64,000 nt of DNA from Rhodovulum sp. P5 (GTDB taxonomy: Bacteria > Pseudomonadota > Alphaproteobacteria > Rhodobacterales > Rhodobacteraceae). A program made the position numbers and the translations under genes. Below are positions 2,094 to 45,718 of the stretch, one piece after another (the first letter of the stretch is position 1; every line of letters starts with the position of its first letter). Location: assembly GCF_002079305.1 (NCBI RefSeq), contig NZ_CP015039.1, forward strand, positions 2,712,001-2,776,000, written 5' to 3'. The notes beneath the pieces were generated by a model. The model was not told the DNA's origin and searched no databases. It saw only the letters and a program-made list of their open reading frames with translations.

Positions 2094-2339
2094 GCGGCAT
2101 ACTCAACTGAAAAGTCCTGTCGCCGAGTGATCGGACGGGCGTCTTAACACCAGCCTTAGGAGCTGGTCAAATGGCCTTTCCGAATTGCGCGATAGAGTAC
2201 GCCAGAGCACGATAAGCACCTGAAATTCATTGATTTTCAGAACTTGCACTCCGAAGTCTCTATCCGAGAATACGCCTTGATTTCCGCCCGCTCACTTGCG
2301 TGTCGCTTGCGCGAAATCGGGTCTTCGAAGGGCCGGAGC
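2094..2339. other. Left junction region of the element (intergenic)
   Basis: This gap separates the host sensor gene from the recombinase and must contain or lie near the left attachment site if the element ends here. A hairpin with a 6-bp stem (ACCAGC/GCTGGT) and a 7-nt loop CTTAGGA lies at 2149-2167. It resembles a tRNA-Leu(UAG) anticodon arm, but no other tRNA part is present. I searched for a copy of the 3' part of the tRNA-Arg at the right end and found none longer than 8 bp (CTCTATCC). An upstream in-frame extension of the recombinase to 2244 is possible but lacks a good ribosome-binding site. Confidence 0.4.
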
Positions 2340-3662
2340 ATGAGCAAACTGACGAAACGATTTGTAGAGTCCGTAACACCAAGAAGCAAAGGCCATGTCG
2401 TATGGGACGACGAATTGCCGTGTTTCGGTCTTCGTGTCTATCCCTCCGGCAAACGAAGTTACCTCCTGCAGTATAGAGCTAAAGGTCGCTCGCGGCGATA
2501 TACGATCGGGCTACACGGCATTTGGACGCCGGAGACTGCACGGCGGGAAGCGAAGGCCTTGCTTGGGCAGATTGCGCAAGGAGAAGATCCTGCAACCGAA
2601 AGAGAGGAGGAAAGGCACGCCGTCACCGTCAGACAACTTTGTGAACAATACATCGCTGACATGGAGGCTGGCCTCATTCTCGGCAAAGGCGGACGGCCGA
2701 AGAAGCCCAAAACGATCGAAACGGACATCGGTCGCATTCGCCGGCACATCATCCCGTTGCTCGGCACACGGAGGATCAAGGACATCACCAAGCCGGATAT
2801 GAACAATCTCATGAAGGACATCATCGCCGGAAAAACGCGTGTTGTGATGAAGACGAAGAAGTTGCGTGGCAAAGCAATCGTCACAGGCGGTCCTGGCACC
2901 GCGATCCGCACAATGGGTCTCCTCGGCGGCATCTTCACCTACGCGATCGAAGCGGGGATCATCGACCAAAACCCGACGCACGGCCTCAAGAAGCCCAGAT
3001 ACAAGGTGCGGGATAGGCGGTTGAGCGAAGCAGAGTACCGAACGCTGGGTCAACTTCTCAAGGACGTGCAGCATGACAGCCACTATGGCATCCACGCCGA
3101 GATCCTTCGTCTCATCGCCCTGACCGGCTGCAGGCGTGGCGAGATAATCAGTCTGCGGTGGAGCGAGGTCGACATCGAAGGCAGTTGCCTGCGTCTGAAA
3201 GACAGCAAGGAAGGCGCATCCGTGCGACCGGTCGGCCTTCCGGTTGTCGACTATCTTGAGGCAGCGCGCCTGAAACGGAACGGAACCTTCGTCTTTCCCG
3301 GTCAGGGTGAGGACAACGCCGTTGGGAACTTCCCGCAGAGCTGGAAAAAGCTGTTCGCCGACACGCCTCTTTGGGATGTGACGCCGCATGTCCTGCGGCA
3401 CAGCTTCGCTAGCATCGCCAACGACCTCGGCTTCACCGAAATCACGATCGCTGCGCTGATCGGACACGCCAAAGGCTCCGTTACGAGCAAATACGTCCAC
3501 ACGCTCGACTCGACCCTGATCATGGCAGCCGACACAGTGTCTGGGTACGTGAAGGCGCTTCTCGACGGTGTGGAATTTAGAAGGAACACATATACGCTCG
3601 ACCGGCAGACACGCAGGAACGCGATTAACGACATGCTCATCGAGGCGCGCCCATACACCTAA
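2340..3662 (+). CDS. int: P4-type tyrosine recombinase (integrase)
   Basis: This 440-residue site-specific recombinase would integrate and excise the element. The N-terminal 85 residues form the DUF4102 arm-binding domain, and a core-binding region follows. The C-terminal catalytic domain carries the expected residues: Arg in ALTGCRRGEIISLRW (about residue 265), HVLRH (about 349-353), a His in LIGHAKG and the nucleophilic Tyr in SKYVHTL (about 384). ATG 2340 is preferred because AAGGG lies 7 nt upstream and the family start MSKLTKRFVES fits; the longer frame from 2244 adds 32 unlike residues. It is transcribed away from the left junction, as is usual for P4-type integrases. The gene looks intact. 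Confidence 0.93.
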   Translation: MSKLTKRFVESVTPRSKGHVVWDDELPCFGLRVYPSGKRSYLLQYRAKGRSRRYTIGLHGIWTPETARREAKALLGQIAQGEDPATEREEERHAVTVRQLCEQYIADMEAGLILGKGGRPKKPKTIETDIGRIRRHIIPLLGTRRIKDITKPDMNNLMKDIIAGKTRVVMKTKKLRGKAIVTGGPGTAIRTMGLLGGIFTYAIEAGIIDQNPTHGLKKPRYKVRDRRLSEAEYRTLGQLLKDVQHDSHYGIHAEILRLIALTGCRRGEIISLRWSEVDIEGSCLRLKDSKEGASVRPVGLPVVDYLEAARLKRNGTFVFPGQGEDNAVGNFPQSWKKLFADTPLWDVTPHVLRHSFASIANDLGFTEITIAALIGHAKGSVTSKYVHTLDSTLIMAADTVSGYVKALLDGVEFRRNTYTLDRQTRRNAINDMLIEARPYT

Positions 3663-3869: not shown

Positions 3870-5036
3870 TTAAGCGGATTCTTCGTCGGGCTGTGAGCTC
3901 TCCGAGTCTCTCATCTCCATCTCTGTATCATGTAGTTGCTGCTTGATATTCGCGACCAAGGCATTGCCACCTGCTTCTCGCGCTTCGTGCATAATGGAAG
4001 CAACCGCACTCATGATCCGCGAAACGGTGCCGTTGAATTCTTGATCCACCTCCAACTGTTTCGGCTGCATAAGATTGCGGACAGATATCTTGGCGATACG
4101 GTCCTTTGCGGTCGGATGGGTCTCCGCGACGGTTGAACCATTTCCGTCCCGACTTTCAAACGCCCGCAGGATCTCAAGTGCAAGCAACATCAGGGAAGCA
4201 CCTGCACAGGTTCTTGTGTATGGGTTCGAAAGCAGCGGAAACGGCTCGAACTCAAGCCGCTCGCAGACCTTCGCCGCAAATGCATCGGCCTGGAACTCCT
4301 GCATCTTGGGATCTTCATCGATACTGCGATGGCTCAGGACATGGTGACCAAACTCGTGAGCAATGGTGAAATACTCCATTGCCCAGGCGACCTGCTCAAA
4401 TAGGTGAAACTCCATCGGCGATGACGGGCGAAATGGTACGAGAACGTGCGTACCAGTCCCTGAGAAGGACACGAAGATCCGAAACCAGTAGAGAACAACC
4501 GTTGGGTTCTTGAGTAGCAACTCGCGATCGTCTTTCGGGCTCGAACCTGGAGAGGTCCAATGCGCGATATCGGCGTAAAGTGTTCGAGTGTAGGCCCTTG
4601 CGACAAGTCCGCACCATCTGAAGAGGAACGAACTCACCGACAGAATGCCCTCATCAGTCATGATCACATTGGTGAGTGACGCAGAAACGCCCGCCACTGG
4701 ATCAATCGCAATCTCGACCTTTTCGTGAGATATGTCTCCTGTTTCAGAAATCGCCTGTCGAACGCGGTCCGAAAGGTGCTTCAATCTGTATTCAATGCCG
4801 GGCCCAACTCCAGGACTGTTTACATTCTCCAACTCCCCGTGAAGGCGTTCTGCATCGTTGCGCCGCTCGATTTGAGCTTCCGACCAGCCGGCATCTCTCA
4901 AAGCACTAATGGTCAACTCTCGCTGTGCAGCCTCACCTTTTTCGTCGGACTCGTGCATCGTCGCATTCAGGTCTACGGCGGCCCTTTCGAACATCTGCGC
5001 CCATAGATCACGCGCCGCGCCATTCCTTTGTTTCAT
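3870..5036 (-). CDS. HExxH metallopeptidase, M48-like
   Basis: A 388-residue protein with a zinc-peptidase signature: HEFGHH at about residue 227, a downstream glutamate in QEFQADAFAAK about 20 residues later as the likely third ligand, and a C-terminal THPTAKDRIAKI segment like the HPxxxxRI motif of M48 peptidases. The N-terminal 100 residues are charged and helical. No strong transmembrane segments are seen, unlike HtpX or Ste24, so a soluble enzyme is likely. It is the last gene of a four-gene minus-strand operon and starts within the stop codon of the DUF7002 gene (ATGA overlap). The substrate is unknown; by analogy with peptidases in conflict systems it could process a partner protein, which is inference. 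Confidence 0.7.
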   Translation of the reverse strand: MKQRNGAARDLWAQMFERAAVDLNATMHESDEKGEAAQRELTISALRDAGWSEAQIERRNDAERLHGELENVNSPGVGPGIEYRLKHLSDRVRQAISETGDISHEKVEIAIDPVAGVSASLTNVIMTDEGILSVSSFLFRWCGLVARAYTRTLYADIAHWTSPGSSPKDDRELLLKNPTVVLYWFRIFVSFSGTGTHVLVPFRPSSPMEFHLFEQVAWAMEYFTIAHEFGHHVLSHRSIDEDPKMQEFQADAFAAKVCERLEFEPFPLLSNPYTRTCAGASLMLLALEILRAFESRDGNGSTVAETHPTAKDRIAKISVRNLMQPKQLEVDQEFNGTVSRIMSAVASIMHEAREAGGNALVANIKQQLHDTEMEMRDSESSQPDEESA

Positions 5037-5704
5037 TCGAGCACACTGACGACCTGGGTGCCTCGCTTAACAACCGCGCGCTTTACATGGTCGCGAATGT
5101 CTTCAACCGAGTGATCAACGGCCAACTCAACCACACGTTCTTTGCGACCTCTCCGTTCCCGCCAGTGGGCATAGGGATAATCTGAGATGCGCGCGAAGAT
5201 CGTTTCATCGCGTGGATGTGGCATGGGCTTGGTACAACCGCTGTTGATAGGACAAAGCCAAATCGCCTCCCTATGCGCCTCGATTAGCGATCGCGTATCG
5301 ACCTCAAGAACGTCGTGCTCCTGGTCTCGGTAAGCCTTCGCATTTGTCAGCTTATGGAGGCGGTCCTCCGAGAGCCAAAAGAAAGCTTTCGCGTTCAGCA
5401 ATTCATACCAATCCGCTGGCGAGAGGCGTTCGGGCAAAGCCCGCCTTAGCCCCGCATCGCTCATCGGAATTTGGTCCCGCACGACGGCTCGTGGAAGACC
5501 GTCGCCCGTCACTTCGACGCTTTCGGGCCGATGTTGGCTTTCGATCTTAGTTCGTTTTGGTGGCTGGACGGCGTAGTGGTCCAAGAGCGCACTGGTACTT
5601 AGCAGACCATATTGCTTGATCGACTCCCATGAGCCTCGTTCCGCCATGTGATACAGCGTCGGGCAGTTCGCGATCAATTCTTCAAGTTCCTCTTCGTTCA
5701 CCAC
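5033..5704 (-). CDS. DUF7002/DarT-like protein, putative ADP-ribosyltransferase fold
   Basis: A 223-residue protein. Its N-terminus reads LYHMAERGSWESIKQYGLLS, the pattern LYH-x(8-10)-I-x-xGLLS seen at the start of DUF7002 and DarT-type proteins with an ADP-ribosyltransferase-like fold. Later segments KAFFWLSEDRLHKL and VLEVDTRSLI are also typical of DUF7002. I cannot identify a catalytic glutamate with confidence. The start is GTG 5704, 7 nt inside the 3' end of the kinase-PurZ gene, and the stop overlaps the peptidase start. An encoded macro domain two genes upstream makes a toxin/antidote relation like DarT/DarG attractive, but this is inference from family resemblance and context. Confidence 0.6.
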   Translation of the reverse strand: MVNEEELEELIANCPTLYHMAERGSWESIKQYGLLSTSALLDHYAVQPPKRTKIESQHRPESVEVTGDGLPRAVVRDQIPMSDAGLRRALPERLSPADWYELLNAKAFFWLSEDRLHKLTNAKAYRDQEHDVLEVDTRSLIEAHREAIWLCPINSGCTKPMPHPRDETIFARISDYPYAHWRERRGRKERVVELAVDHSVEDIRDHVKRAVVKRGTQVVSVLE

Positions 5705-7329
5705 GCTCTCCGATCAATGACGTTGCGCCAGTTAAAATCTGTCGACAGCAGCGAAACCGGCCGACCTGATATTCTCTCGATCTCTTCGACGAAACTGATT
5801 GTGTCTTCAGAAAGCTGCTCAAAGCGAAATGCCTTTCGGTTTTTAACATCGAAATAATCGACAAATGTGAGGGCGATATCCGTCGGCCCGTTTAGCTGAA
5901 CCGAGTCGCGAAACTGGAGCCAGTCGAACTCCGCGATCCGTCGCGGCCTGTCGGTGGTGGTCGTGCGCTCGGTCTTCTCAAGTTCCTCCAGCGGAATGCC
6001 ACTGCGCCGATGGATTTCCGCCATATCGACCTCGTGCGCCAGCGGACCGGAGGGGCCGCCCACCCGGATCGGATAGGTACGACAAACCATGATTACCTTC
6101 CGGACGTTTGAAGGCGCAATGCCAGCATCGGCAAGACAACCCGACACAGTCGTATCTCTAGTCGTTACATGGGGGTAGTCGCCGTGGTGAAGGCTTAGGC
6201 CAGTGCCCTGCGTGCCCTCCAAGAGGATGCGCTGTCCCGCCACCATCGCGTCTGCCAAGATCTGACGAGCGCTTCCCAGGTAAGGTTGGAGGACATCACA
6301 GTCGCGGGCAAGAAAGGCCGCCTTCTCCTCTTTGTAATCCGACCGACCAGTCATCTTGCGGGCAGAAGCGACGCCAACGCCTTGCGCCGTCGAGCTGATG
6401 CTACCGAACCGCTTTTCTTCCTCTTTCCGATCCTCATCGGTGATGATCATCGCGCGCGGGTCGATGGTGAGTCTGGCTGAATCAATCTTGTGCTCGGCGA
6501 TCTCTTCGAGCAGCTTCTTCGGGTAGATTACCGCACCTGGACCGAGCAGTAACTTCGCATTCGGGGCTCGCTGCGTGCCCGAAGGAAGGTGATAGTATTT
6601 TTCCGGCTTGGGCTCTGCATAAACTTGGTGGCCCGCGTTTGGCCCGCCAACACGCACCAGGAGGTCATATTCCGGCGCGATGTGACCAACGATGTTCCCC
6701 TTACCTTCACTTCCAAACTGGCCGCCGATGAGCACATCGACCACGGCGTCATTCGAACGCGGATAAAGATTGAGGAGCGCGGTAGCTCGAACGAGAACCG
6801 CTTCTTCATTGCAGCGGTCAGTCGAAACAACAATATCGGCGATGTCAGCGAGCTTCTCGATCTCCCGCTCCGTGCGGTTGCGCTTCAGCTCATCGTATGC
6901 AACCGCCTCGTCGTCCTCTCTGCTGCGCCCTTCGTAACGCTTTCGCAGTTCCTCGTCCGTGGCGGTCAAATGGATGTGATGGACCTCGGCACCGTATGCC
7001 CGTCGGATCGCCTCGATCTGACCCGGGATGCGGACAGAATCGACGACGTAGAGACCTTTTGGGGTTTGCCCCGTCGCATACGTGTCGATCGAACGCTGGA
7101 GGGCTTCGCCGACCCATGCGCCGCCGTCCTTCCTGTCGAGCCTCTGTCCCGCCAGCTGCAACGCTTTGCGTTCCGACTTGGTCTTGGGCGCCTTCTTCAG
7201 AATGAGCTCGCGCGTCTTGATGATCTTCGCGCCATGCCTTTCCTTGAGCAGTCGCACCAGAGCCGACTTGCCGGAGCAGATGGGTCCGGAAAGCAGAACG
7301 ACACGAAGATTTACGCTCGCGCCCCCCAA
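5698..7329 (-). CDS. Nucleotide kinase fused to PurZ-like adenylosuccinate synthetase
   Basis: A 543-residue fusion. Residues 1 to about 195 form a P-loop kinase (GPICSGKS at 15-22; lid-like Arg-rich segment near 131-155) resembling nucleoside monophosphate kinases. Residues about 199-543 are an adenylosuccinate synthetase domain with GGQFGSEGKGN (202-212), GGPNAGH (His234), EGTQGT...HHGDYPHVT (about 370-385) and DRPRRIAEFDW. Two PurA-diagnostic residues differ: the catalytic Asp of GDEGKGK is Ser207, as in phage PurZ (2-aminodeoxyadenylosuccinate synthetase), and the TKLD guanine-recognition motif reads TFVD (about 488). The domain (345 residues) is also nearer to PurZ than to PurA (about 430) in length. 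The start is TTG, immediately after the stop of the upstream gene. The dGMP-like substrate and ATP use are inference from known PurZ enzymes. Confidence 0.85.
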   Translation of the reverse strand: MGGASVNLRVVLLSGPICSGKSALVRLLKERHGAKIIKTRELILKKAPKTKSERKALQLAGQRLDRKDGGAWVGEALQRSIDTYATGQTPKGLYVVDSVRIPGQIEAIRRAYGAEVHHIHLTATDEELRKRYEGRSREDDEAVAYDELKRNRTEREIEKLADIADIVVSTDRCNEEAVLVRATALLNLYPRSNDAVVDVLIGGQFGSEGKGNIVGHIAPEYDLLVRVGGPNAGHQVYAEPKPEKYYHLPSGTQRAPNAKLLLGPGAVIYPKKLLEEIAEHKIDSARLTIDPRAMIITDEDRKEEEKRFGSISSTAQGVGVASARKMTGRSDYKEEKAAFLARDCDVLQPYLGSARQILADAMVAGQRILLEGTQGTGLSLHHGDYPHVTTRDTTVSGCLADAGIAPSNVRKVIMVCRTYPIRVGGPSGPLAHEVDMAEIHRRSGIPLEELEKTERTTTTDRPRRIAEFDWLQFRDSVQLNGPTDIALTFVDYFDVKNRKAFRFEQLSEDTISFVEEIERISGRPVSLLSTDFNWRNVIDRRAW

Positions 7330-8664
7330 TTAGAACAACTCGAGCTGCGCGCGCTTCGGCGGGACATCATAGACAGTTACAAACAAACCGGCACGCACCA
7401 TCACATCATCAAGCATCTCTTCTATCGTTGACCAATCGCCTCCCGCAGATCCTGTGCCGATCTTTGGCATATGAATACTCGCTCCAATGGATGAGGCTTG
7501 ATCGGCAACTTGTTCAAGGCAGGTTTGTAGTTCTGCATATCTTATGCGGGGAAAAAGTGAGGGACCGAAGCCTTCCTGTCCAATCAGACTTGCGATGATC
7601 AGATCATCGCTGGCCTCCGAAAAAATCACGCGGCCCAAACGTTCGCCTTGGGGAATCTGCATGACTTTCTCCGAATAGGCATTTTCCGCATCCGGAAAAC
7701 GTTTTGCAATCTTGCGCGCAACTCCTCCGCCCCATTTGATCGCCTTGTCGTTGACCAGCTGACAGATGATCTTTTTGCCGCCGTTGCGGGGCTCAAGGAC
7801 ATTCCCATGAAGCAAGCGTATCGGACGATGGTTTTCTTGGCCTTGGTCAAACCTGACCAGGCCGGCCACTCTGGGGTAAACGCTTCCTGGATAAGCCGTC
7901 AGACCTACACACTCGATCTGGGTCGGCTTATCCATCACCCAGCTCTCAACTGAACGGTCTGTATGACCGATCGCTGTGCAGCGATGCACAATGCTCTCGT
8001 CGGGAATGGCCATCCCTGATAGGCGAATCTTCGGCGCGGTCGGCGAGCCGATGAAATAGTCGATCCTGTAATGGCGCGTCCCATTCTCCGAGACTGTGGG
8101 CGACGAAACGAAGATTCCGATGGGCTGACTGGATATCTTGGCCAATCGAATGAGAAAGGCTTCGGCCGATACGTCATAGTCTCGACGCTGACGCATCAAG
8201 TCCTCGATTGGAGGAATGTCTGTTGCAGCCGATAGACTTCCGATTGGAAGTACGAATTCCGAAGCGGCCAAATTGCACAGCATTTCCAACTGCCAATCGT
8301 CCGGTGTCTTATCGCCACCTCGGTTGCGGATCTGCTCCGACCAGTCAGGGAAGAGAAGGTGGGCGATTTCATGCGCAATCGAGAACCGCACCCGCTCCCG
8401 CGGCTGCTGGGGATTGAACTCGATCTTCGGACCGCTTTCCGTCGCAACCAGTCGAGCGTCGGCGACGCTCGAATTGGCCTCGATCTGTACCTCCAGCATC
8501 TCAGCGATGTGCAGAGGATTGTAAGGTGGCCCTTCCCAGCCTTTCTCACGGGCTTTCAAAACAAGAGCGCGTGCTGCTTCTTCCATTGCGGTCAATGGGT
8601 CTGCGTTCTTCGCAAAAGCCCTTACTGAGGCATTGGTCCAATTGATTGATGGGGCGTTCGTCAT
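7330..8664 (-). CDS. ImmA/IrrE peptidase fused to DarG/ALC1-like macro domain
   Basis: A 444-residue protein with two recognisable parts. The N-terminal half is an ImmA/IrrE-type metallopeptidase: VRFSIAHEIAHLLFPDWSEQ contains HEIAH at about 95-99. The C-terminal part (about 280-440) is a macro domain with LLHGNVLEP, a glycine loop GGGVARKIAK (about 310) and MPKIGTGSAGGDW (about 400), closest in pattern to ALC1-like macro domains such as DarG and TARG1, which remove ADP-ribose. ImmA-type peptidases usually cleave a repressor, so the fusion could sense stress and also reverse ADP-ribosylation. It is the first gene of the operon, and two palindromes lie upstream. Both domain calls are firm; their joint role is inferred. 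Confidence 0.85.
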   Translation of the reverse strand: MTNAPSINWTNASVRAFAKNADPLTAMEEAARALVLKAREKGWEGPPYNPLHIAEMLEVQIEANSSVADARLVATESGPKIEFNPQQPRERVRFSIAHEIAHLLFPDWSEQIRNRGGDKTPDDWQLEMLCNLAASEFVLPIGSLSAATDIPPIEDLMRQRRDYDVSAEAFLIRLAKISSQPIGIFVSSPTVSENGTRHYRIDYFIGSPTAPKIRLSGMAIPDESIVHRCTAIGHTDRSVESWVMDKPTQIECVGLTAYPGSVYPRVAGLVRFDQGQENHRPIRLLHGNVLEPRNGGKKIICQLVNDKAIKWGGGVARKIAKRFPDAENAYSEKVMQIPQGERLGRVIFSEASDDLIIASLIGQEGFGPSLFPRIRYAELQTCLEQVADQASSIGASIHMPKIGTGSAGGDWSTIEEMLDDVMVRAGLFVTVYDVPPKRAQLELF

Positions 8665-8790: not shown

Positions 8791-9360
8791 CTATAAGACA
8801 TCCGAATAATCCTGGATTGCCGAAGCAAATTTGGTCATGCCCATTCCTTCATAAGCTTCGATATGCTCCTCAGAGCTTCGGGGTTGCCGCTTTAGCGCAG
8901 CCCTGTGGTCTCGAACCGCTCCGAGAACAGCGCCCGGGTAAAGATCGAACAAACTGAAAGCGAAATCATCTGGATGCTGAGCTTCAATCTCGTAGGGGTC
9001 GAGCTCTTCCTGCGGGAAGTCCTTCAAATTCTGTGTGACGATGACATCAGCTCGGCCCCTGATCGCTGCTGCAAGAACGTGCCGATCGTCTGCATCGGGA
9101 AGCGTCAAGCCATCAATCAGCGGCTCGAACCCCACAACCACCGCATCGGGGAAATGCCGATCCATGGTCTCTCTGGTTCGTTGAAGTTTATCGGCGGTTA
9201 GGTCAGGTCGGTCCTTCAGCACATTTCTCGTCCATTCGTCGTGGATGATCTCACTCCAGCGAACGCGGTAGAGATTGCGATCAGCGAGGCGTAGGAGCAA
9301 ATCGCGCAGGCCGACCGGATAGATGACGTTGGCGTCCAGTAACGCAGTGAACCGGTCCAT
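8791..9360 (-). CDS. PIN-domain toxin
   Basis: A 189-residue PIN-fold ribonuclease, the likely toxin of a type II pair. Conserved acidic residues are visible in LLDANVIYP (Asp9), the central Glu/Asp of IIHDEW, LPDADDRHVLAAAI and VTQNLKDFP. These would hold Mg2+ for RNA cleavage. ATG 9360 follows the stop of the antitoxin gene by 3 nt, so the two are translated together. The C-terminal 60 residues go beyond the usual VapC length and are of unknown use. The gene is intact. The family is known as PIN paired with an excisionase-type HTH antitoxin; the RNA target cannot be read from the sequence. Confidence 0.82.
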   Translation of the reverse strand: MDRFTALLDANVIYPVGLRDLLLRLADRNLYRVRWSEIIHDEWTRNVLKDRPDLTADKLQRTRETMDRHFPDAVVVGFEPLIDGLTLPDADDRHVLAAAIRGRADVIVTQNLKDFPQEELDPYEIEAQHPDDFAFSLFDLYPGAVLGAVRDHRAALKRQPRSSEEHIEAYEGMGMTKFASAIQDYSDVL

Positions 9361-10001: not shown

Positions 10002-13000
10002 TCACAGAAGATCTGACCAGTCTCGATTGTTAAGTTCCGCGTCAGAAGCTGCTTCGACGCGAGTCTCCAGCATGGATACAGTTTCCCCGTCCGAAGCCGA
10101 TTTAAGGTGCACCGCGACGTCCGCAAATCGTCGATGGGTCTCCCGCCTCGGCCATTTGGCCGAGCGCATCTGGACAGCATAGGCAGCCATTTCAGCACTA
10201 CTGTAGCCACGTCGGATACACTGGTTCAAATATGTCAGACCCGGGCTCGCTTCGACCGGTTCGTCTTTCTCCGCACTGACAAGACGGAGGAATATCTGAT
10301 GCGGAACTGCCAGCACATGCGCGAGGTCAGGAACTAAACGGATGACAAACTTCCGCGCACTTGTGCTGCGTTTGATGTCCCGCGCTTTTTGGGAAAGCAC
10401 CTTCTGAACGTTGACAAGTGCAGCACCACCCATCCATTCACCAAGCGCGGATCGCAACAGAGGAACAGCGAAAGCCGCCCGATCCGCGCTTCTGCTGAGT
10501 TCTTTGAATTCCTTGCCGAGCAGGTATTCAATACTCTCAATCCTTAGAAGCCTGAACATCTCATTTGGATGCGATTCCAGCCATTCGAACATCCACGCAC
10601 ACCAATCCGCTACGGTCGTGTTTGCGGCCAGACCGCTTCCGACAACATCTTTGGCAAGTGTTGCAAGAACATCTTCTGGCATGCCAACCATCGAAGCCAG
10701 ATCGCGAAGTGGCTGACGGTCCACGGCAGACTCATCGTCGCCGTCGCTCAAGAGCGCCAAAGCGGCGGCAGTTCGACTGGCAATCCAGTCTTCTTCAGCG
10801 GCCTGTTTTTTACGGAAAGCTCCGAAACTGCGGGCAAGGCCGAGGCGTACGTCCTTGACGCCATCTTCGCCTTCGCTGGTCTCAGCGAGGCGCGCGACCA
10901 CGTATTTCTCGAGATCGCCAATCTCTGACGTTTTGTCATGGATGCGATCCATCAACGCCGTAAACGGGTCATCAAGAACCAAGCATTGGTCCGACTGACC
11001 GAAGATGTCCCGCAAGCGCGACCACCGAGAGCCGATCTTATTCTCCTTATCGTCAAGACCAACGACTTTTCCTGGGATCACCAACACGATGCCGGTCGCA
11101 CTCTCACCGGCACGCCCCGCGCGGCCTGCAGCGTTCAGCAAATCTTCCGGGTCCAGAATGTCGCGGCGGCCGGCATCGGCGTTGTACTGACTATCTTCAG
11201 CAATGATGACGAGTTCCGCAGGCAGATTCATCCCTTGACCGAGCGTTGGCGTGGCCGCGAGCACCGATATTCCGCCTTTGCGCTTGTACAGCGATTCCGC
11301 CAGTTGGCGCTCTTCCGGCAGCAGTTGCCCATGATGGGTGGTCGCAAGAGCCGCGAGGTTTCCGTCCTTGAGTTCTAAGTAAAGTTGTTCTGCATCGCCA
11401 AATTCGTCCGCCGCAATATCGACAAGGCGCCGCTCGGCCTCCGTTAGTTCAACATTGCACGCTCCCAACGCTTTCCCAGCTTTGTCGGCAATCGACACGG
11501 CGTTAGGGATGGATTGCGAGAACACCAGTGTACGGATCCCGGCTTTGGCCGCGGCAGCGGCTATCGAAGCGGCGACCACGCCAGAATTCGGGGTTAAACC
11601 CCACCCTTTGTTTACGGATAGCGGCAGTGGATCGGGGAAAAAAGGAACGAGCGCATAGTCGCTGCGCGCCTGCGACACCCAGGTCTGCTTCACGCTAAAG
11701 AAACCGCTCGGAAGTGCGGTCATCTGTCGTTGCAAGGCAACGGGCGCTCCTCCACTTGGCTTCTTCCGACGTCCCTCGCGGAGTTGCTTCTCCAAATTTC
11801 GGATGCGTGCGATGTCATAGACGACGCAACCGCGCAGCTGGCGGGTTGGTTTCCATGCATTATCCAACGCAAGCGCATCGCGCCCGGTCAGGTCTGCTAG
11901 CCAAGCACTAATTTCATCTGTGTTCTTCATCATGGCAGATAGAAGGACGAGATCAGCCTGAGGCGCGACCCGCACAAACCCCAAGATACAAAGCATGCCG
12001 TCTATCGCGCGCCGATCAGCTCCATCGTCCGGGTGGATGAGGTGGCATTCGTCGAAGATGAGGAGCCCTACATCCTCAAATCTTTCCGGTTCCATATGGC
12101 TCAGCAACAAACAGGCCTCGGGCGTCATCACCATGACATCTGGTAGCTCATCCTCGCCGCTCGCAAATCCGAACTCATCGACACGCTCACCCTGGACGCT
12201 GGCCGTCGGAAATGCCTCGCGTAGGTCTCGCGCCGTCTGATCGACCAGCGCATGCGTCGGCGCGAGGAACACCGCCTTGCGGCCCGAAAGCAACACCGAG
12301 TGGATCTTGAGCTGCGCCGTCGTCGATTTGCCGGCTCCCGTCGGGAACCCAATTGCCGATGATGTTCCAATCTCAAGGTATCCTCGTGCTGCCGCCTCTT
12401 TGTGATTGCGCCATAGATAAGGCCGCGTCTTGGCAACGCTTTTCATGGCGGATCGCCAACGAGCCGCCGGTACGCCGTTCGGTGGCGGCAAATTGACGAC
12501 GGCCCCCTCCATCAGCGCTGAACCCGCCGCGATCAAGAGACTCGCCAAATGAAGAGGCCCAGGGAAGACCACAAAAGCACCGTGGCTTAACTCGTCTATG
12601 TCATCTTCGCTTCTCGGTGACGCTAGCGCCTTTACCTCCGTGAAGACTGCAATAGGATCAGCCATACCTGTAATCCGGCGGCCTTGGAGCGTGAAGGCCA
12701 AAGCGCGCACGCCGCGTAGTAGCCGGTAATACAGCGCCGCATTTGCGCGCTCGGCCCCTGAACCGGTCACAACCGCCGACATCCGGAGACGTTTACGATC
12801 GGTGATCTGTCCGACTTGCCCGCGTGCCAACCAGATCAAGTGGAGGATCAACTCAGATTGAAGCCGCGAGTCCCGTGGGCGCTGTATTGTCCGAGCCACT
12901 TCGGACGCGTCGGCCGACGCCTCCGCGACGAGAAATAGAAGCATTGCCGAGATGTCTGGACTGATGCCATTGACGCTGAGATTGGCGGGAGGTCGAGTCC

Positions 13001-15339: not shown

Positions 15340-15725
15340 CAGAAACCGACCCCTTCTTCGTCATCGCCATCGTCTATCGGAGTAGCGTTGTCCTGGCTTT
15401 TGCTCGAAGACTTCGGTGTGCGCTTGCGATCGATCCGCTTGGGGAGGCTTTCCCGGTCGAGCAGCAATCCGGTGTCATCTGTGCCTGCATCCAGGAAGTC
15501 CGAGATGCGGTCGATCTCGCCCAGGACGAGGCACGCCATGGCGAGCGTACCGATGCTCACACCATCATCGCCTTTCTCGAGCCGGGCCACAGTGCTTTCG
15601 GACACACCAATTCGCTCCGCGAAGCCTTTCACGGAGATGCGCCGTTTCAAACGCGCCGTCTTTATATTTGCGCCCAGAGCCTCCAAGGCTCGACGTGCGC
15701 TTACTGAGTTCACTTTAACCGCCAT
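15339..15725 (-). CDS. hipB: HipB-like XRE antitoxin/repressor
   Basis: A 128-residue protein with an XRE helix-turn-helix near residues 20-75 (ARLKRRISVKGFAERIGVSE, then STVARLEKGDDGVSIGTLAM) and a charged C-terminal tail rich in Ser/Lys/Asp. It precedes and overlaps hipA, as expected for an antitoxin that represses its own operon. The upstream region is AT-rich, and a related sequence recurs at 3701-3735. The start ATG 15725 gives MAVKVNSVSARRAL and matches the length of longer HipB proteins. Confidence 0.85.
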   Translation of the reverse strand: MAVKVNSVSARRALEALGANIKTARLKRRISVKGFAERIGVSESTVARLEKGDDGVSIGTLAMACLVLGEIDRISDFLDAGTDDTGLLLDRESLPKRIDRKRTPKSSSKSQDNATPIDDGDDEEGVGF

Positions 15726-32021: not shown

Positions 32022-33776
32022 ATGAGCGGACGCGACAATGACATCCGCATCAAGCCCGGGCGCATCCGCGACAAGGGTCCGTCGGCCAGGCGCGCGAAGA
32101 GCTTCGTCGGGCAGGTCATGCGTGCCGCGAAGAAGGCGGGACATACCGGTAACAACTTCAGAACGAGCGGCGGTCGCGCCGGTCGATCGACCTTCGGACG
32201 CGGGCGCTTCGTCAGAGTGTCTCGCGGGCTTGCGCGGACGCAGCGCCGCGTAGTCGTGAACGCGCGGATCGTCAGACATCGTGGCCAGAAGTTTCGGTCA
32301 GCCCCGCTCGCCAGGCATCTCGACTATCTGAAGCGCGAGGGTGTCACCAAGGACGGCCGAGATGCGGCCACGTTCGACAAGGAGCACGACCGAGCCAACG
32401 ACCGCGCCTTCGCCGCCAGCGCCGAAGACGACCGGCATCATTTCCGCTTCATCATCTCGCCGGAAGACGCCGGTCAGATGGAAGACTTGCGCGCCTTCAC
32501 CCGCGACCTGATGGCCCAGGCCGAACGCGATCTCGGCACCGAGCTCGATTGGGTCGCAGTCGATCATTGGAACACCGACAATCCGCATGTCCACGTGCTG
32601 GTGCGCGGCAAAGCCGATGATGGGAAAGACCTCGTCATCTCTCGCCATTACATCAGCCGCGGTCTGCGGGGCCGCGCTGAAGAGCTTGTGAAGTTGGAGC
32701 TCGGTCCCCGCAGTGAGAAGGAGATCGCGACCGGGCTCGATGCCGAAGTGAAGGCCGAGCGCTGGACCGGTCTGGATCGGGCGCTGCGGTCCTATGCCCA
32801 CGATACGCTCGGTGTGGCCGACCTGCGGCCCGGCGCGCCTGATCTCGACGACAAAGAGCTCAAGCGCCGAATGATCGGCCGTGCGCAGGCGTTGGAACGG
32901 TTTGGGCTTGCAGACAAACTCGTACCCTCCGTCTGGCAGTTGAAGCCAGGGATGGAAGACACGCTGCGCGAAATGGCCGTGCGCGGCGACATCATCAAGA
33001 CGATGCATCGGGCGATGGGTGGACAGTCCCGCGCACAAACTGACTTTGCGATCGAGGGGCAACCGGAAACACTGGTTCTCGGCAAGCTGGTCGATCGCGG
33101 GTTGCACAACGAACTTTCCGGCGAGGCCTACGCCATCATCGACGGGGTCGATGGCCGTCTCCATCACCTGCGTTTCCGCGATCTCGATCTGACGGGCGAC
33201 ACACCGGTCGGCGGGATCGTCGAGACGCGGAGCTGGGCCGGGAAGGATGGTGGGGCGCGGCGCCTCGCTTTGGTCGGGAGATCGGACATTGCGCTCGCCA
33301 AACAAGTCAACGCCGATGGCGCGACCTGGGTCGATCGGTTGGCGCTTGCCAAGACCAGCGCGCCGCTCGCGCAGAGCGGGTTTGGCGCGGAGGTCCGCGA
33401 CGCATTGGAGAAGCGGGCCGAGCATTTGGTTGGACAGGGTCTGGCGACGCGGCAAGGTCAGCGCGTCACCTTCAACCGCGATCTCCTGAAGACACTGCGC
33501 CGGCGCGATCTCGATCAAGCTGCAAGCAAGATCGCCGACGACACCGGTCTGTCCTTCCGCAAGTCCGGTGACGGCGAGACCGTGGCTGGCACGTATCGCC
33601 AGCGCCTAGATCTCGCCTCCGGCCGCTTCGCCATGATCGATGACGGCATGGGGTTCGAGCTCGTCCCCTGGAAGCCCCAGCTCGAAAAGCATCTCGGCCA
33701 GACCGTCTCTGGCACCGTCGCGACCGGCGGCGGCATCGACTGGTCGCTCGGCCGCAAGCGCGGCCTGTCGATCTGA
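32022..33776 (+). CDS. rlxS: RlxS-type relaxase (DUF3363)
   Basis: A 584-residue relaxase. The basic N-terminus is followed by a HUH-type core with VAVDHWNTDNPHVHVLVRG (about 177-195), containing the metal-binding His residues. Upstream HHFRFIISPEDAGQMEDLRA is typical of the DUF3363 family. It would nick oriT and pilot the strand. The ATG lies 248 bp after the transglycosylase gene, behind the candidate oriT. TraG follows after 13 bp. The gene is full length. Confidence 0.9.
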   Translation: MSGRDNDIRIKPGRIRDKGPSARRAKSFVGQVMRAAKKAGHTGNNFRTSGGRAGRSTFGRGRFVRVSRGLARTQRRVVVNARIVRHRGQKFRSAPLARHLDYLKREGVTKDGRDAATFDKEHDRANDRAFAASAEDDRHHFRFIISPEDAGQMEDLRAFTRDLMAQAERDLGTELDWVAVDHWNTDNPHVHVLVRGKADDGKDLVISRHYISRGLRGRAEELVKLELGPRSEKEIATGLDAEVKAERWTGLDRALRSYAHDTLGVADLRPGAPDLDDKELKRRMIGRAQALERFGLADKLVPSVWQLKPGMEDTLREMAVRGDIIKTMHRAMGGQSRAQTDFAIEGQPETLVLGKLVDRGLHNELSGEAYAIIDGVDGRLHHLRFRDLDLTGDTPVGGIVETRSWAGKDGGARRLALVGRSDIALAKQVNADGATWVDRLALAKTSAPLAQSGFGAEVRDALEKRAEHLVGQGLATRQGQRVTFNRDLLKTLRRRDLDQAASKIADDTGLSFRKSGDGETVAGTYRQRLDLASGRFAMIDDGMGFELVPWKPQLEKHLGQTVSGTVATGGGIDWSLGRKRGLSI

Positions 33777-33789
33777 CCCGGAGAACTCT

Positions 33790-35784
33790 ATGACCTCGAA
33801 GAAACATGCATCACCGGCCACCGCCATCCTCTGGGGCCAGATCCTCGTCGTCTCGACGGTCGCGCTGCTCTTCGTCTGGGCGGCGACGCAATGGGTGGCG
33901 TTCCGGCTCGGCTTCCAGTCCGAACTGGGCGACCCGGTGGCGACCATCTTCGGCCTGCCGATCTACCCGCCCTGGAACGTCTTTGTCTGGTGGTACTGGT
34001 ACGACGCCTATGCGCCGCGCGTCTTCATGGAGGGCGCAATCATCGCGGGCGCGGGCGGCATCGCCGCTGTATGCGTTGCGATCTTTCTTTCCGTCCTGCG
34101 CGCCCGCGAAGCGAGCAACGTGACGACCTATGGTTCCGCCCGGTGGGGGACCGAGAAGGATATGCGCGAGGCGGGATTGTTCGTGGATGATGGCGTGGTC
34201 CTCGGACGCTACCGGTCCCGCTACCTCCGCCATGACGGGCCTGAACATGTGCTCTGCTTCGCGCCGACGCGCTCCGGCAAAGGTGTCGGTCTGGTCGTGC
34301 CGTCACTGCTCACTTGGCCGGGCTCGGCCATCGTCCACGACATCAAGGGCGAGAACTGGGAGCTCACGGCGAACTACCGCGCCCGCTTCAGCCGGGTGTT
34401 GCTCTTCGATCCAACCGATCCGAACTCGGCGGCCTACAATCCGCTGCTCGAAGTGCGGCGCGGCGATAGCGAGGTGCGCGACGTTCAGAACGTCGCCGAC
34501 ATCTTGGTCGATCCCGAGGGTCTGCTCGAACGGCGGAACCATTGGGAAAAGACGAGCCACTCGCTCTTGGTCGGCGCGATCCTGCATGTCCTCTACGCCG
34601 AAGCCGACAAGACGCTGGCGGGCGTCGCGGCCTTCCTCTCCGATCCGAAGCGTCCGATCGAGTCGACGCTCGCGGCGATGATGCGCACCCCGCATCTCGG
34701 CGATCACCCGCATCCCGTCGTCGCGCAGGCCGCGCGTGAGCTTTTGAACAAGTCGGAGAACGAACGCTCCGGTGTTCTCTCGACCGCCATGAGTTTTCTT
34801 GGGCTCTATCGTGATCCAGTTGTCGCCAAGGTCACGCGCCGCTGCGACTGGCGGATCGACGATCTCGCGACAGGCGACAGGCCGGTGACGCTGTACCTCG
34901 TGGTGCCACCATCAGACATCTCACGGACGAAGCCGCTGATCCGGCTCGTGCTCAACCAGATCGGTCGACGACTGACGGAAGACCTGCATGCTAAGCGCAC
35001 CCACCGCATGCTGCTCATGCTGGACGAGTTTCCGGCGCTCGGGCGGCTCGACTTCTTCGAGAGCCAGCTCGCCTTCATGGCGGGCTATGGGATCAAGGCC
35101 TTCCTCATCGCCCAGTCGCTCAATCAGATCGAGAAGGCCTACGGGCAAAACAACGCGATCCTCGACAATTGCCATGTGCGCGTCGCCTTTGCGACCAATG
35201 ACGAGCGCACCGCGAAGCGCGTATCCGATGCGCTCGGCACAGCGACCGAGATGCGCGCCATGAAGAACTATGCCGGACATCGGCTATCGCCTTGGCTCGG
35301 GCATCTGATGGTCTCACGGCAGGAGACGGCGCGGCCGCTGCTCACACCCGGCGAGATGATGCAGCTTCCCCCGACCGAGGAGATCGTCCTCGTCTCCGGT
35401 GCGCCGCCGGTGCGGGCGAAGAAGGCGCGCTACTACACCGATCCTCAGTTCAAAGCGCGGATCGCACCACCGCCAGATCGCACTGCCAGCGATGAGTCAG
35501 TTAGCAGCACGGCAGACGATTGGAGCGGCTGCGAACCGATCGCTGCGCCGCCACCGAAGAAGCGAAAGTCATCAACGGACGACACCGATGGCGGTGTCCG
35601 TCGCGAACCCGACCTGCCGGAACATGAAGACATCGCGTCCGAACCAGCACCGGCACGCAGCGAGTTCGCCGATCTCGATGACGAACCGGAGGATGATGTC
35701 CAGCGGGCCAAAGCCATGCGCGACCGGTTCGCCACGGTCGCGCGGCAAGCTTCGCTCGATCCCGATGACGGGATCGAGCTCTAG
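33790..35784 (+). CDS. traG: TraG/VirD4 coupling protein
   Basis: A 664-residue type IV coupling protein. Two N-terminal membrane helices are followed by Walker A APTRSGKGVGLVV (about 158) and Walker B LLMLDEFPALG (about 407). It links the relaxosome to the Trb channel. The C-terminal 90 residues are hydrophilic and acidic, probably for substrate recognition. ATG 33790 has GGAG upstream; the longer frame from 33640 overlaps rlxS and is rejected. Confidence 0.93.
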   Translation: MTSKKHASPATAILWGQILVVSTVALLFVWAATQWVAFRLGFQSELGDPVATIFGLPIYPPWNVFVWWYWYDAYAPRVFMEGAIIAGAGGIAAVCVAIFLSVLRAREASNVTTYGSARWGTEKDMREAGLFVDDGVVLGRYRSRYLRHDGPEHVLCFAPTRSGKGVGLVVPSLLTWPGSAIVHDIKGENWELTANYRARFSRVLLFDPTDPNSAAYNPLLEVRRGDSEVRDVQNVADILVDPEGLLERRNHWEKTSHSLLVGAILHVLYAEADKTLAGVAAFLSDPKRPIESTLAAMMRTPHLGDHPHPVVAQAARELLNKSENERSGVLSTAMSFLGLYRDPVVAKVTRRCDWRIDDLATGDRPVTLYLVVPPSDISRTKPLIRLVLNQIGRRLTEDLHAKRTHRMLLMLDEFPALGRLDFFESQLAFMAGYGIKAFLIAQSLNQIEKAYGQNNAILDNCHVRVAFATNDERTAKRVSDALGTATEMRAMKNYAGHRLSPWLGHLMVSRQETARPLLTPGEMMQLPPTEEIVLVSGAPPVRAKKARYYTDPQFKARIAPPPDRTASDESVSSTADDWSGCEPIAAPPPKKRKSSTDDTDGGVRREPDLPEHEDIASEPAPARSEFADLDDEPEDDVQRAKAMRDRFATVARQASLDPDDGIEL

Positions 35785-41481: not shown

Positions 41482-42771
41482 ATGGACGGCGTCGGCGTCA
41501 TCGATCGGTTCCTGGAGGTCTTCACGACCTACATCGACAGCGGGTTCGGGCTGCTCGGCGGCGATGTCGCCTTTCTTGCCACGACGCTGATTGTCATCGA
41601 CGTCACGCTCGCGGCACTGTTTTGGGCTTGGGGTGCCGATGACGATATCATCGGACGGCTCGTCAAGAAGACGCTCTTCGTCGGCGTCTTCGCCTACATC
41701 ATCAGCAACTGGAACACGCTCGCGCGCATCGTCTTCGAGAGTTTCGCGGGGTTGGGTCTCGTCGCCACCGGCGGCGCGATCGGTGCGGGCGAGCTATTGC
41801 AGCCCGGACGCATCGCCGCCGTCGGGCTCGAAGCCGGGCAACCGATCCTGGAATCCATCGCCGACCTGATGGGGTTTGTCTCCTTCTTCGAGAACTTCAT
41901 CCAAATCTCGATCCTGCTCTTCGCATGGATGGTCGTGCTGCTCTCCTTCTTCATCCTCGCGATCCAGCTCTTCGTTACCCTCATCGAGTTCAAGCTCGCG
42001 ACGCTCGCGGGCTTCATCCTCGTGCCCTTCGGCCTCTTCAACAAGACCGCCTTCATGGCCGAGCGCGTGCTCGGCCTCGTCATCTCGTCCGGGGTCAAGG
42101 TGCTCGTGCTCGCCGTCATCGTCGGCATCGGCTCGACGATCTTCGGGGAGTTCACCGCCGGGTTCACGGGTGAGCCCACCATCGAGGACGCGATGGCCGT
42201 CGTCCTCGCTGCGCTGTCGCTGCTCGCGCTCGGCATCTTCGGCCCCGGCATCGCAAACGGCATCGTCTCGGGCGGTCCGCAGCTCGGCGCAGGCGCAGCG
42301 GTGGGAGCCGGCCTCGCAGCAGGCGGTGTTGTCGCGGGAGGTCTCGCAGGCGCAAAGATCGCCGGAGCCGCCGGTGGAGCCGCCCTGCGCGGCGGTTCTG
42401 CCGTCGCCGGTGGCGCTTCGACCGCCTTCAAGATCGGCGCGGCCTCGGGCACGTCCACGGCCGGGAAAGCCGCGAGCGGCATAGCGGCCATCGGTCAGGC
42501 CGGAGTCAATACCGCCGTCAGCCCCCTCAAGCGCGCCGTCGGCGACAGCTATCGCTCGGGCTCACGCGCCGCCTTCGAAGCCACGGGCGGCAAGTTCAGT
42601 AATTCCCCGTCTTCCATGCCCACGCCCGCCAATGACGGACCGCCCGCCTGGGCGCGCCGCATGAAGCGCCAGCATAGCCTTCAGCACGGCACCGCCGTCG
42701 CCGCACACGCCATCCGCTCCGGCGATGGCGGCGGCGCGGGCACGGCCGTCAGCCTTTCGGAGAGATCATGA
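41482..42771 (+). CDS. trbL: TrbL (VirB6-like) channel protein
   Basis: A 429-residue polytopic inner-membrane protein with about six helices in residues 20-270 and a Gly/Ala-rich, low-complexity C-terminus (GAGAAVGAGLAAGGVVAGGL). It forms part of the inner-membrane channel. Start 3 nt after the TrbK-alt stop; trbF overlaps the end by ATGA. Confidence 0.92.
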   Translation: MDGVGVIDRFLEVFTTYIDSGFGLLGGDVAFLATTLIVIDVTLAALFWAWGADDDIIGRLVKKTLFVGVFAYIISNWNTLARIVFESFAGLGLVATGGAIGAGELLQPGRIAAVGLEAGQPILESIADLMGFVSFFENFIQISILLFAWMVVLLSFFILAIQLFVTLIEFKLATLAGFILVPFGLFNKTAFMAERVLGLVISSGVKVLVLAVIVGIGSTIFGEFTAGFTGEPTIEDAMAVVLAALSLLALGIFGPGIANGIVSGGPQLGAGAAVGAGLAAGGVVAGGLAGAKIAGAAGGAALRGGSAVAGGASTAFKIGAASGTSTAGKAASGIAAIGQAGVNTAVSPLKRAVGDSYRSGSRAAFEATGGKFSNSPSSMPTPANDGPPAWARRMKRQHSLQHGTAVAAHAIRSGDGGGAGTAVSLSERS

Positions 42772-44494: not shown

Positions 44495-45718
44495 ATGACC
44501 GGCACCGAAAACCAGCAACAAGACGACCACCCCGAAGAGCCGCCACGCACCGAACAGGACATCGCCAAGGAACTGCGCCTGCGGCCCGATCCGCCACGGG
44601 TCATGCGGCTCTCGCGCAAGGCGATCACTGTTCTGGCCGTCGCGGGCGGGCTCGGCATCGGCGCGATCCTGATCGTCGCCTTGCAAGGTTCCGATCAAGG
44701 CGATGGGCCGTCAGAACTCTTCTCGACGGAACGGGTCCAAGAGGCCGAGGGCCTTTTGGGTCTGCCGCGCGACTACGCATCGATCCCACAGCTCGGGCCA
44801 CCGCTTCCGGGAGAACTCGGACGTCCCGTTCTATCGGCGCAGCAGCGGGGTGAACCCGTGCCCGTCGTGCCGGCGACCGGCCCAGCTGTCGATCCGGAAG
44901 AACAACTTCGCTTGCAGGAGGCCGAAGCCGCGCGGCTCGCAACGCTCTTTGCCGACGCGAGGACGAACGGCGCGGGTGCTGCGAACCCACAAACTGCACC
45001 GGTCGCAGCCCCAAGCCCTAGCTTGCAAGGGCTGTTCCCGGCATCGGCCGGGCAGGCACGACAACCGGACACGACGGAGCGACAGGAAGCCTTCTTGGAT
45101 CGCGAGGTCGACCGACGGACCACTGCCGCGGACCGCGTGCAGTCACCGGCGAGCCCTTACGTCTTGCAGGCTGGATCGGTGATCGAGGCGGCGCTTCTAA
45201 CGGGGCTGCGCTCGGATCTACCCGGACAGATTACCGCGCAGGTCACCGCAAACGTCTATGACAGCCCGACCGGGCAATTTTTATTGATCCCCCAGGGCGC
45301 GCGCCTGTTGGGCGAATATGACAGCAGCGTGGAGACCGGCCAGCGCCGCCTGCTGCTCGCTTGGACGCGCCTGATTCTGCCTGGCGGTCGCTCCATCGTC
45401 CTCGAACGCCAGCCCGGCACCGACCAGGCCGGATATGCGGGCCTCGAAGACGGTGTCGACAACCACTGGGGTCAGCTCTTTCGCGCGGCCGGTCTCGCCA
45501 CCATCCTCAATATCGGCCTCGAAACCGGTGAGGGTGGCGGCGATGAGATCGCCGAAGCGATCCGCGACGGCACACAGGATACGATCGGCCGCGCGGGCGA
45601 GGCCATTGTTCAGCGCCAGCTTCAGATTCCGCCGACACTGACGATCCGACCGGGATTTCCCGTTCGGGTGATGGTCACACGCGATCTCGTTCTCGAACCT
45701 TATGGAGATGCGCGATGA
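44495..45718 (+). CDS. trbI: TrbI (VirB10-like) protein
   Basis: A 407-residue VirB10-type protein: cytoplasmic tail, one membrane helix (AITVLAVAGGLGIGAILIVA), Pro/Gln-rich linker and a C-terminal domain (YVLQAGSVIEAALLTGLRSD, FLLIPQGARLLGEYDSSV). It spans both membranes and links energy to the channel. The 3' end overlaps the DUF2274 gene by 4 nt. Confidence 0.93.
   Translation: MTGTENQQQDDHPEEPPRTEQDIAKELRLRPDPPRVMRLSRKAITVLAVAGGLGIGAILIVALQGSDQGDGPSELFSTERVQEAEGLLGLPRDYASIPQLGPPLPGELGRPVLSAQQRGEPVPVVPATGPAVDPEEQLRLQEAEAARLATLFADARTNGAGAANPQTAPVAAPSPSLQGLFPASAGQARQPDTTERQEAFLDREVDRRTTAADRVQSPASPYVLQAGSVIEAALLTGLRSDLPGQITAQVTANVYDSPTGQFLLIPQGARLLGEYDSSVETGQRRLLLAWTRLILPGGRSIVLERQPGTDQAGYAGLEDGVDNHWGQLFRAAGLATILNIGLETGEGGGDEIAEAIRDGTQDTIGRAGEAIVQRQLQIPPTLTIRPGFPVRVMVTRDLVLEPYGDAR

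Follow-up and report, generated by a model that had tools for sequence, protein, structure and literature searches.

A 64,000-nucleotide stretch of the Rhodovulum sp. P5 genome (positions 2,712,001 to 2,776,000 of contig NZ_CP015039.1; hereafter, the window) encodes a single protein in which a nucleotide kinase is fused to an adenylosuccinate synthetase (AdSS) with serine in place of the catalytic aspartate, next to a gene for a DUF7002 protein, a predicted ADP-ribosyltransferase (ART). The best supported reading of this arrangement is that PurZ-type chemistry, predicted to act on a guanine mononucleotide and combined with a built-in nucleoside monophosphate (NMP) kinase, operates within a conflict module based on ADP-ribosylation; the observations suggest a bacterial system for conflict or defence of a kind not yet described. 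The genes and sites on which this reading rests, in positions of the window, are the following:

5698..7329, minus strand: the kinase-AdSS fusion, 543 amino acids (aa), a single uninterrupted open reading frame (ORF), identified with Pfam and an AlphaFold model
6760..7305, minus strand: the N-terminal P-loop NMP-kinase-like domain, residues 9-190, with the Walker A motif GPICSGKS at residues 15-22
5701..6741, minus strand: the predicted PurZ-type AdSS domain, residues 197-543
6709..6711, minus strand: the codon of Ser207, by alignment at the place of the catalytic Asp13 of Escherichia coli PurA
5857..5859, minus strand: the codon of Asp491, by alignment at the place of the guanine-reading Asp333
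5033..5704, minus strand: the DUF7002 protein, 223 aa, a predicted DarT1-like ADP-ribosyltransferase

A sequence-only reading of this DNA had proposed that a kinase is fused to the N-terminus of the synthetase, and the fusion holds: both domains are recognized within the one 543-aa ORF (5698-7329) rather than in separate genes. The TTG start codon abuts the stop codon of the upstream gene (TAA TTG), and the 3' end overlaps the DUF7002 gene by 7 nt. Pfam detects AAA_18/AAA_33 within residues 10-147 and Adenylsucc_synt with 181.4 bits, well above the Pfam cut-off; the NCBIfam matches, from about residue 197, are led by PRK04293 (263.6 bits, cut-off 368), followed by the PurA and PurZ models, with all AdSS-type models scoring below their own cut-offs (PurZ, 196.3 bits versus 300). 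The AlphaFold model of the fusion has a mean pLDDT of 88.0 and a pTM of 0.83, and solved structures match both domains. The protein has 6195 matches, and the 120 matches listed cover 90-100% of the query. In comparisons of the window gene with those of loci L004, L006, L007 and L013, the ratio of nonsynonymous to synonymous substitution rates (dN/dS) is 0.056-0.085 for the kinase half and 0.024-0.043 for the synthetase half (for a fifth locus, L008, dS was not computable). Purifying selection acts on both halves of the fusion, which is neither an assembly artefact nor a chance one. The host genome also encodes a separate, ordinary PurA with aspartate at the catalytic place.

The N-terminal domain has the Walker A motif, the NMP-site arginine and the fold of adenylate-kinase-like NMP kinases. 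In the alignment, R88 and Q92 of E. coli Adk have their counterparts in R100 and Q104, and the kinase motifs are invariant in the 33 fusion sequences aligned. A related P-loop kinase-like domain is fused to a nucleotide-modifying domain in the anti-phage dCTP deaminases (AvcD); the kinase region matches the PADLOC dCTPase profile (E 2.2e-10) and, below the cut-off of the model, NCBIfam NF041025 (E 6.7e-5). The domain following the kinase, however, is a deaminase in those proteins and an AdSS in the fusion.

In an alignment of 22 AdSS domains, S207, H234, Q374, R461, R463, F489 and D491 of the window protein correspond to Asp13, His41, Gln224, Arg303, Arg305, Lys331 and Asp333 of E. coli PurA, respectively, and the equivalents of His41, Gln224, Lys16 and Arg305 are retained. 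The Asp-to-Ser replacement at residue 207, noticed in the sequence-only reading, is thereby located at Asp13. Serine occupies this place in the seven fusions in the alignment (representing both types of loci defined below), PurZ, PurZ0 and a short AdSS of Sinorhizobium medicae, and aspartate in E. coli PurA, the host PurA, the P. horikoshii enzyme and the R. leguminosarum 7-deazapurine-cluster enzyme. The serine is present in all 33 aligned fusions and in 120/120 fusion proteins among the matches listed. Published work reports that all 147 sequences from phages in the PurZ group have serine and that Asp13 is 99% conserved in the PurA group (PMC12884076), and places Ser23 of S-2L PurZ near the 2-amino group of dGMP (PMC8342488). 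By analogy with PurZ, a 2-amino purine, that is, a guanine mononucleotide (GMP or dGMP), is suggested as the substrate of the fusion. An insertion bearing SG (GxSGP in the window) is common to the fusions, PurZ and PurZ0. At the place of Arg143, 31 of the 33 fusions have Gly and two have Asn, next to the invariant R329.

The nucleotide donor is a separate matter. Residues T488-F-V-D491 align with T-K331-L-D333 of E. coli PurA, and the sequence-only reading took this TFVD in place of TKLD as a sign that ATP or dATP is used. The substitution itself stands in part, Lys331 being replaced by Phe in the window, but the guanine-reading Asp333 is kept in 33/33 fusions, and we reject TFVD as evidence of ATP use. 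S-2L PurZ, which uses ATP or dATP, holds the adenine of dATP with N305 and Q308 (PMC8342488); N294/N297 are found at the base site of VP2 PurZ and N297 in that of phiVC8, whereas the window has T488/D491, as in PurA, and the ATP-type base site is absent from the fusion. Four aligned PurZ0-type sequences retain the Asp, so the missing ATP-type site bears on PurZ proper. The preference of PurZ is taken here from PMC8342488, with which the statement in PMC12884076 that PurZ0 and PurZ prefer ATP and GTP "respectively" is at odds as regards S-2L PurZ. Given that the guanine-reading Asp is kept and is absent from the ATP-using PurZ enzymes, GTP appears to be the likelier donor. The place of Arg303, a residue that approaches the ribose O2' in PurA (PMC8342488), is occupied by Arg in 22 fusions, the window included, by Lys in ten and by Asn in one (Lys 7, Arg 1 and Asn 1 in nine type II rows); with the Arg303 equivalent present, GMP may be a substrate beside dGMP.

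Two trees of the synthetase domain were built, the first with 43 rows and the second with 42, without the long-branched MaF61; the Asp type is represented by only four rows. In both trees, these four Asp-type (PurA) rows are split off with support of 100/100 (from 38 others in the second), and the 17 fusions form a single fusion-only clade (100/99), with PurZ, PurZ0 and the bacterial short Ser-type AdSS as further separate clades. The window fusion belongs to its own clade, inside neither the phage PurZ nor the PurZ0 clade; in the second tree, the fusion clade joins PurZ and BpsS140 at 94/90. In approximately unbiased (AU) tests, a grouping of the fusions with the four PurZ without BpsS140 is rejected (p 0.026) and one that places the fusions and PurA on one side of a branch is not (p 0.104); the tests do not single out one deep branch order among the Ser-type clades. 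Assignment to the clade of housekeeping PurA is rejected on the strength of Ser207 and the 100/100 branch separating the Asp-type rows, so that the enzyme appears to be PurZ-like, as the sequence-only reading had it, with a predicted placement outside PurA.

A large group of single-domain AdSS also lacks the catalytic Asp: among the relatives of the S. medicae protein listed, Ser is found in 115/120 and Gly in 5/120. Many of these proteins are labelled adenylosuccinate synthase by their sources, whose names indicate that most of the short Ser-type group is bacterial. A search of the genomes of the class with the short Ser-type AdSS (E <= 1e-50) yielded matches in 2/289, both being the fusion itself. 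The S. medicae gene lies on plasmid pMl5 (L024, 6296-9057) near a BilD gene, with a gene for a DCD-like protein downstream and a divergent gene for a dNMP-phosphatase-like HD protein upstream; these enzyme classes recall the phage Z-nucleotide clusters, here on a bacterial plasmid. Plasmid pCC283b_4 of Rhizobium leguminosarum (L025, 6372-14720) carries FolE, a short Asp-type AdSS, PurB, QueE, QueC, IMP dehydrogenase and 6-carboxytetrahydropterin synthase, a probable 7-deazapurine cluster.

The genomic context of the fusion was compared over 24 loci, 23 of them distinct (12 of type I, including the window, and 11 of type II). The sole IMG/VR locus, L014, is identical over 21,617 bases to L005 of Roseibium suaedae and accordingly was not counted separately. 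Hidden Markov model searches for partners (E <= 1e-4) identified DUF7002 as the next gene in 22 of the 23 distinct loci; the remaining one, L009, ends inside the fusion gene. Likewise, all eight fusion-bearing records of PLSDB carry DUF7002 adjoining the fusion. DUF7002 resembles DarT1 both by the fold of its model and by profile, and DarT is the closest solved relative of its ART fold; E193, invariant in 27 DUF7002 sequences, is a candidate for the ART glutamate, E152 in DarT1. The protein is thus predicted, from the model, to be a DarT1-like ADP-ribosyltransferase that would be expected to attach ADP-ribose to nucleic acid. No phage record matched DUF7002 at E 1e-5, and a literature search on the family found no paper. 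In a sample of the phylum, DUF7002 occurs in 6/398 genomes, five of them above the cut-off and the host included; the fusion lies beside it in G488 and G349 and not in G678 and G702, and a weak match in G589 was not confirmed by profile. Two more DUF7002 records in PLSDB (Caballeronia and Streptomyces) show no AdSS within the 12.5 kb read. Distant DUF7002 genes in stretches where no AdSS was seen are found in L037 (5258-5899), L038 (5523-6164), L042 (5992-6633) and L043 (5998-6642); one of these is in Streptomyces, and the predicted transferase occurs without the fusion, too.

Apart from DUF7002, the loci fall into two gene sets. The other components of the type I locus in the window are these:

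7330..8664, minus strand: M78 (IrrE/CapP-like) metallopeptidase-macrodomain protein, 444 aa (Pfam M78, Macro)
7363..7824, minus strand: its macrodomain (residues 281-434), in which N305 and Q363 correspond to N27 and Q85 of SCO6735
8143..8436, minus strand: its M78 peptidase domain, HEIAH at residues 98-102 (Pfam)
3870..5036, minus strand: M48/M78-like metallopeptidase, HEFGH at residues 227-231 (Pfam)
8791..9360, minus strand: PIN-domain protein (Pfam), also upstream in L004 and L006
9364..9822, minus strand: HTH_17 protein adjoining the PIN gene (Pfam)

The M78-macro gene, two genes upstream of DUF7002, is present in 11 of the 12 distinct type I loci (the twelfth, L010, begins at the fusion) and in none of the 11 type II loci. 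Its product matches PADLOC capP (E 2e-16), and the best solved relative of its macrodomain is SCO6735 (structure 5e3b, E 1.6e-22). N27 and Q85 of SCO6735 were found to be necessary (PMC9411070); their equivalents, placed by manual count along the alignment with an offset of 20 residues for the tag, are kept in 9/9 M78-macro homologues, as is the HExxH motif of the M78 domain. Relatives of the M48/M78-like protein follow DUF7002 in L004, L005/L014, L007 and, in a broken form, L011. Given the DarT1-like partner and the DarG/SCO6735-like macrodomain, the module seems to concern ADP-ribosylation as well as nucleotides.

Type II loci, which are found on plasmids of Rhizobiaceae and Methylobacterium and in three genomes, encode instead an HD protein and a 452-aa protein, each present in 11/11 type II and 0/12 type I loci. 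The HD protein matches the PHROGs dNMP phosphatase (E 6.5e-63), with dATP triphosphohydrolase far behind (E 3.1e-7); its identification as DatZ was rejected, since pairwise it resembles S-2L DatZ only around the HD motif (E 5e-5, 0.003). The 452-aa protein (L021, 10104-11462) has ten type II homologues 55-86% identical to it, and nothing in Pfam, PADLOC or PHROGs matched it within the limits applied; a PDB profile search gave nothing better than E 0.079.

The window copy lies in what is, by its gene content, a Trb-type integrative and conjugative element (ICE), with an integrase, a relaxase, a coupling protein and type IV secretion system genes:

2244..3662, plus strand: tyrosine integrase
32022..33776, plus strand: relaxase (DUF3363)
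33640..35784, plus strand: VirD4/TraG-type coupling protein
41482..42771, plus strand: TrbL
44495..45718, plus strand: TrbI

The earlier assignment of the fusion to a conflict operon on a conjugative element is supported, and it is equally true that phage replication genes do not accompany the fusion. In a search for attachment repeats, the exact repeats shared by the left 3.7 kb and 44-64 kb were at most 14 bases long. The region at 3.9-15.7 kb combines the module with the PIN and HTH genes, a HamB-like helicase and HipA. The helicase, of the DEAD-box type (PADLOC E 1.9e-34), and a 262-aa neighbour without a family match (together 10002-14085) are possibly a Hachiman-like pair; a HipA-like protein and a small HTH-like protein (14110-15725) lie beside the defence-like genes, and an ORF at 28758-29588 matches Abi_C weakly, with a score under the curated cut-off. 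Plasmid copies of the fusion are located near RdrA/RdrB of RADAR (L022), SIR2, DUF87 and AbiE genes (L044), AbiJ-NTD4 (L028), and AAA and UvrD genes (L023).

The fusion is an accessory gene with a patchy distribution. Among 62 candidate stretches from a search of genome contigs, 11 encode a relative and ten loci have the fusion, including L009, which stops where its contig does, as well as L011 and L012, in which the gene is broken into frames. It was detected in 5 of 385 genomes of the class (E <= 1e-45), the host among them and another, G089, carrying it as two separate pieces (L017 and L020); in one of 16 genomes of the genus, that of the window; in 0/40 other relatives, a sample overlapping that of the class; and in 8 of 72,556 PLSDB records at coverage of at least 80%. 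A near-mode search of E. coli genomes gave no match. A phage origin of the fusion was rejected: 218 of 50,697 phage records match, none over 80% of the query, and among the 40 rows listed of these 218, every match begins at residue 166 or later.

What could such a module do? The synthetase domain would join aspartate to C6 of GMP or dGMP, probably with GTP as the donor, yielding an N6-succino-2-aminoadenine nucleotide; trimming of this product by the host PurB could then give a 2-aminoadenine nucleotide. PurB performs this trimming step in the phage Z pathway. The adenylate-kinase-like domain would phosphorylate either the product or the substrate of the synthetase. During attack by a phage or rival mobile DNA, the base-modified nucleotide would become the input of the DUF7002 transferase, as activator or substrate; in type I, the macrodomain of the M78-macro protein would remove the ADP-ribose, acting as the antitoxin until cleaved or lost. 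Taken loosely, as a defence or toxin-antitoxin module that couples ADP-ribosylation to a purine nucleotide with a modified base, derived from a guanine mononucleotide, this scheme is tentative and falls somewhat short of an even chance. It draws on tool results (the fusion, Ser207, the kept active-site residues, the DUF7002 linkage, the ART-like fold and the macrodomain residues) and, further, on the PurZ analogy for the 2-amino purine substrate, on D491 for GTP and on the gene context for defence. The link between the nucleotide product and the transferase, whether as signal or as substrate, is one that we infer and consider doubtful; an immune system built on a single polypeptide that produces a succinylated or 2-amino-adenine nucleotide from guanine mononucleotides and phosphorylates it, this nucleotide being the second messenger or dedicated substrate of a DarT1-like transferase, is likewise conceivable but rather unlikely. 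In favour of the scheme, SCO6735 removes thymidine-linked ADP-ribose and rescues E. coli from DarT (PMC9411070). SCO6735 is, however, inactive on guanosine-linked ADP-ribose (PMC9411070), which is not easily squared with DarT1-type guanine modification.

A possible, although not probable, alternative is that the enzyme poisons nucleotide pools, draining guanine mononucleotides or making Z-type nucleotides that directly block the synthesis of phage DNA or RNA, with DUF7002 and the macrodomain as a separate toxin-antitoxin pair. RADAR has been described as disturbing nucleotide pools (PMC12948488), the HD partner in type II is dNMP-phosphatase-like, and the Ser-type AdSS of pMl5 has HD and DCD-like genes but no DUF7002 in the 15 kb read. 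That DUF7002 adjoins the fusion in 22/23 distinct loci, whose two gene sets otherwise differ, speaks for a joint function instead. It is improbable that the fusion is a sensor and regulator that, on binding guanine or modified nucleotides, turns the transferase on or off, its own catalytic activity being secondary or lost: the Gly or Asn at the Arg143 place would agree with this, but the other catalytic residues checked in the two domains do not vary among 33 sequences and dN/dS is low. Protection of the element itself, whereby modified nucleotides would mark its DNA or RNA or shield them from restriction or the transferase, has a precedent in the genome modification served by phage PurZ, but host dATP would compete and no polymerase was identified among the neighbours scanned for families (part of the ORFs of the element), making this very unlikely. 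Slighter still is the chance of a second AdSS serving the metabolism of purines or natural products, like those of 7-deazapurine clusters: the short AdSS of L025, with PurB, FolE, QueC, QueE and an IMP dehydrogenase gene, is such a case, but it has Asp and groups with PurA, and the module has none of these cluster genes; the 7-deazapurine reading was rejected, the cluster being seen in L025 only with an Asp-type AdSS and other genes. Finally, an Asp-less but otherwise ordinary PurA using IMP is highly improbable, D491, R461 and the non-rejected AU grouping notwithstanding, in view of the near-universal Asp13 of PurA, the normal PurA of the host and the 100/100 branch.

Compared with known systems, the kinase-AdSS module shares individual traits with several. 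The fusion resembles phage PurZ and PurZ0 in the fold, the Asp13-to-Ser replacement and the SG-bearing insertion, PurZ in the Phe at the Lys331 place and PurZ0 in the Asp at the Asp333 place, but differs in its own clade, the fused kinase, the location on a bacterial ICE or plasmids and, in the window, the PurA-like Arg at the Arg303 place; no DatZ, MazZ or DutZ set was found in type I loci. The best PDB match to the fusion, by sequence and structure, is the P. horikoshii short AdSS (5k7x), which, however, has the catalytic Asp and a single domain. As in DarTG and DarT1-NADAR, a predicted DarT1-like transferase is encoded in type I near a macrodomain of the ADP-ribosylhydrolase type. The sequence of DUF7002 is nevertheless remote from those of the known DarTs; the macrodomain, of the SCO6735 type, is joined to an M78 protease and separated from DUF7002 by the nucleotide-modifying enzyme; and in type II a macrodomain of this kind is absent. 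Kongming (KomABC), as described in PMC12948488 and PMC12774641, is a precedent for base-modified nucleotides as immune signals. The likeness extends only to the idea of a kinase-made base-modified purine nucleotide coupled to an NAD+-using effector; Kongming relies on other enzymes, namely a phage kinase and NAD+ depletion by KomB-KomC, whereas signalling by the present module is hypothetical. Pfam analysis of nine window proteins found no deaminase or SIR2, no KomABC model having been searched by name.

The individual domains are all members of known families, but the literature searches brought up neither the fusion nor its clade nor the two gene sets. In searches that paired AdSS or PurZ with kinases, conflict, macro domains, defence or ADP-ribosyltransferases, no title or abstract opening among the matches listed described the fusion, most subscription journals being outside their scope, and the description of a fusion within an ICE conflict operon as new thus seems fair.

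The findings place PurZ-type chemistry, so far known mainly from phages with Z genomes, in a mobile conflict module of bacteria, tied to ADP-ribosylation, and provide DUF7002 with an identity, that of a DarT1-like transferase, that can be tested. If the fusion and the transferase indeed form an immune system, PurZ chemistry would serve bacterial immunity rather than phage genome modification, and the kinase that Kongming borrows from the phage would be part of the synthetase polypeptide. Should the product be a signal, nucleotide-based immunity would extend to aspartate-bearing or 2-amino purines; should it be a poison, the module would represent a natural nucleotide-analogue defence.

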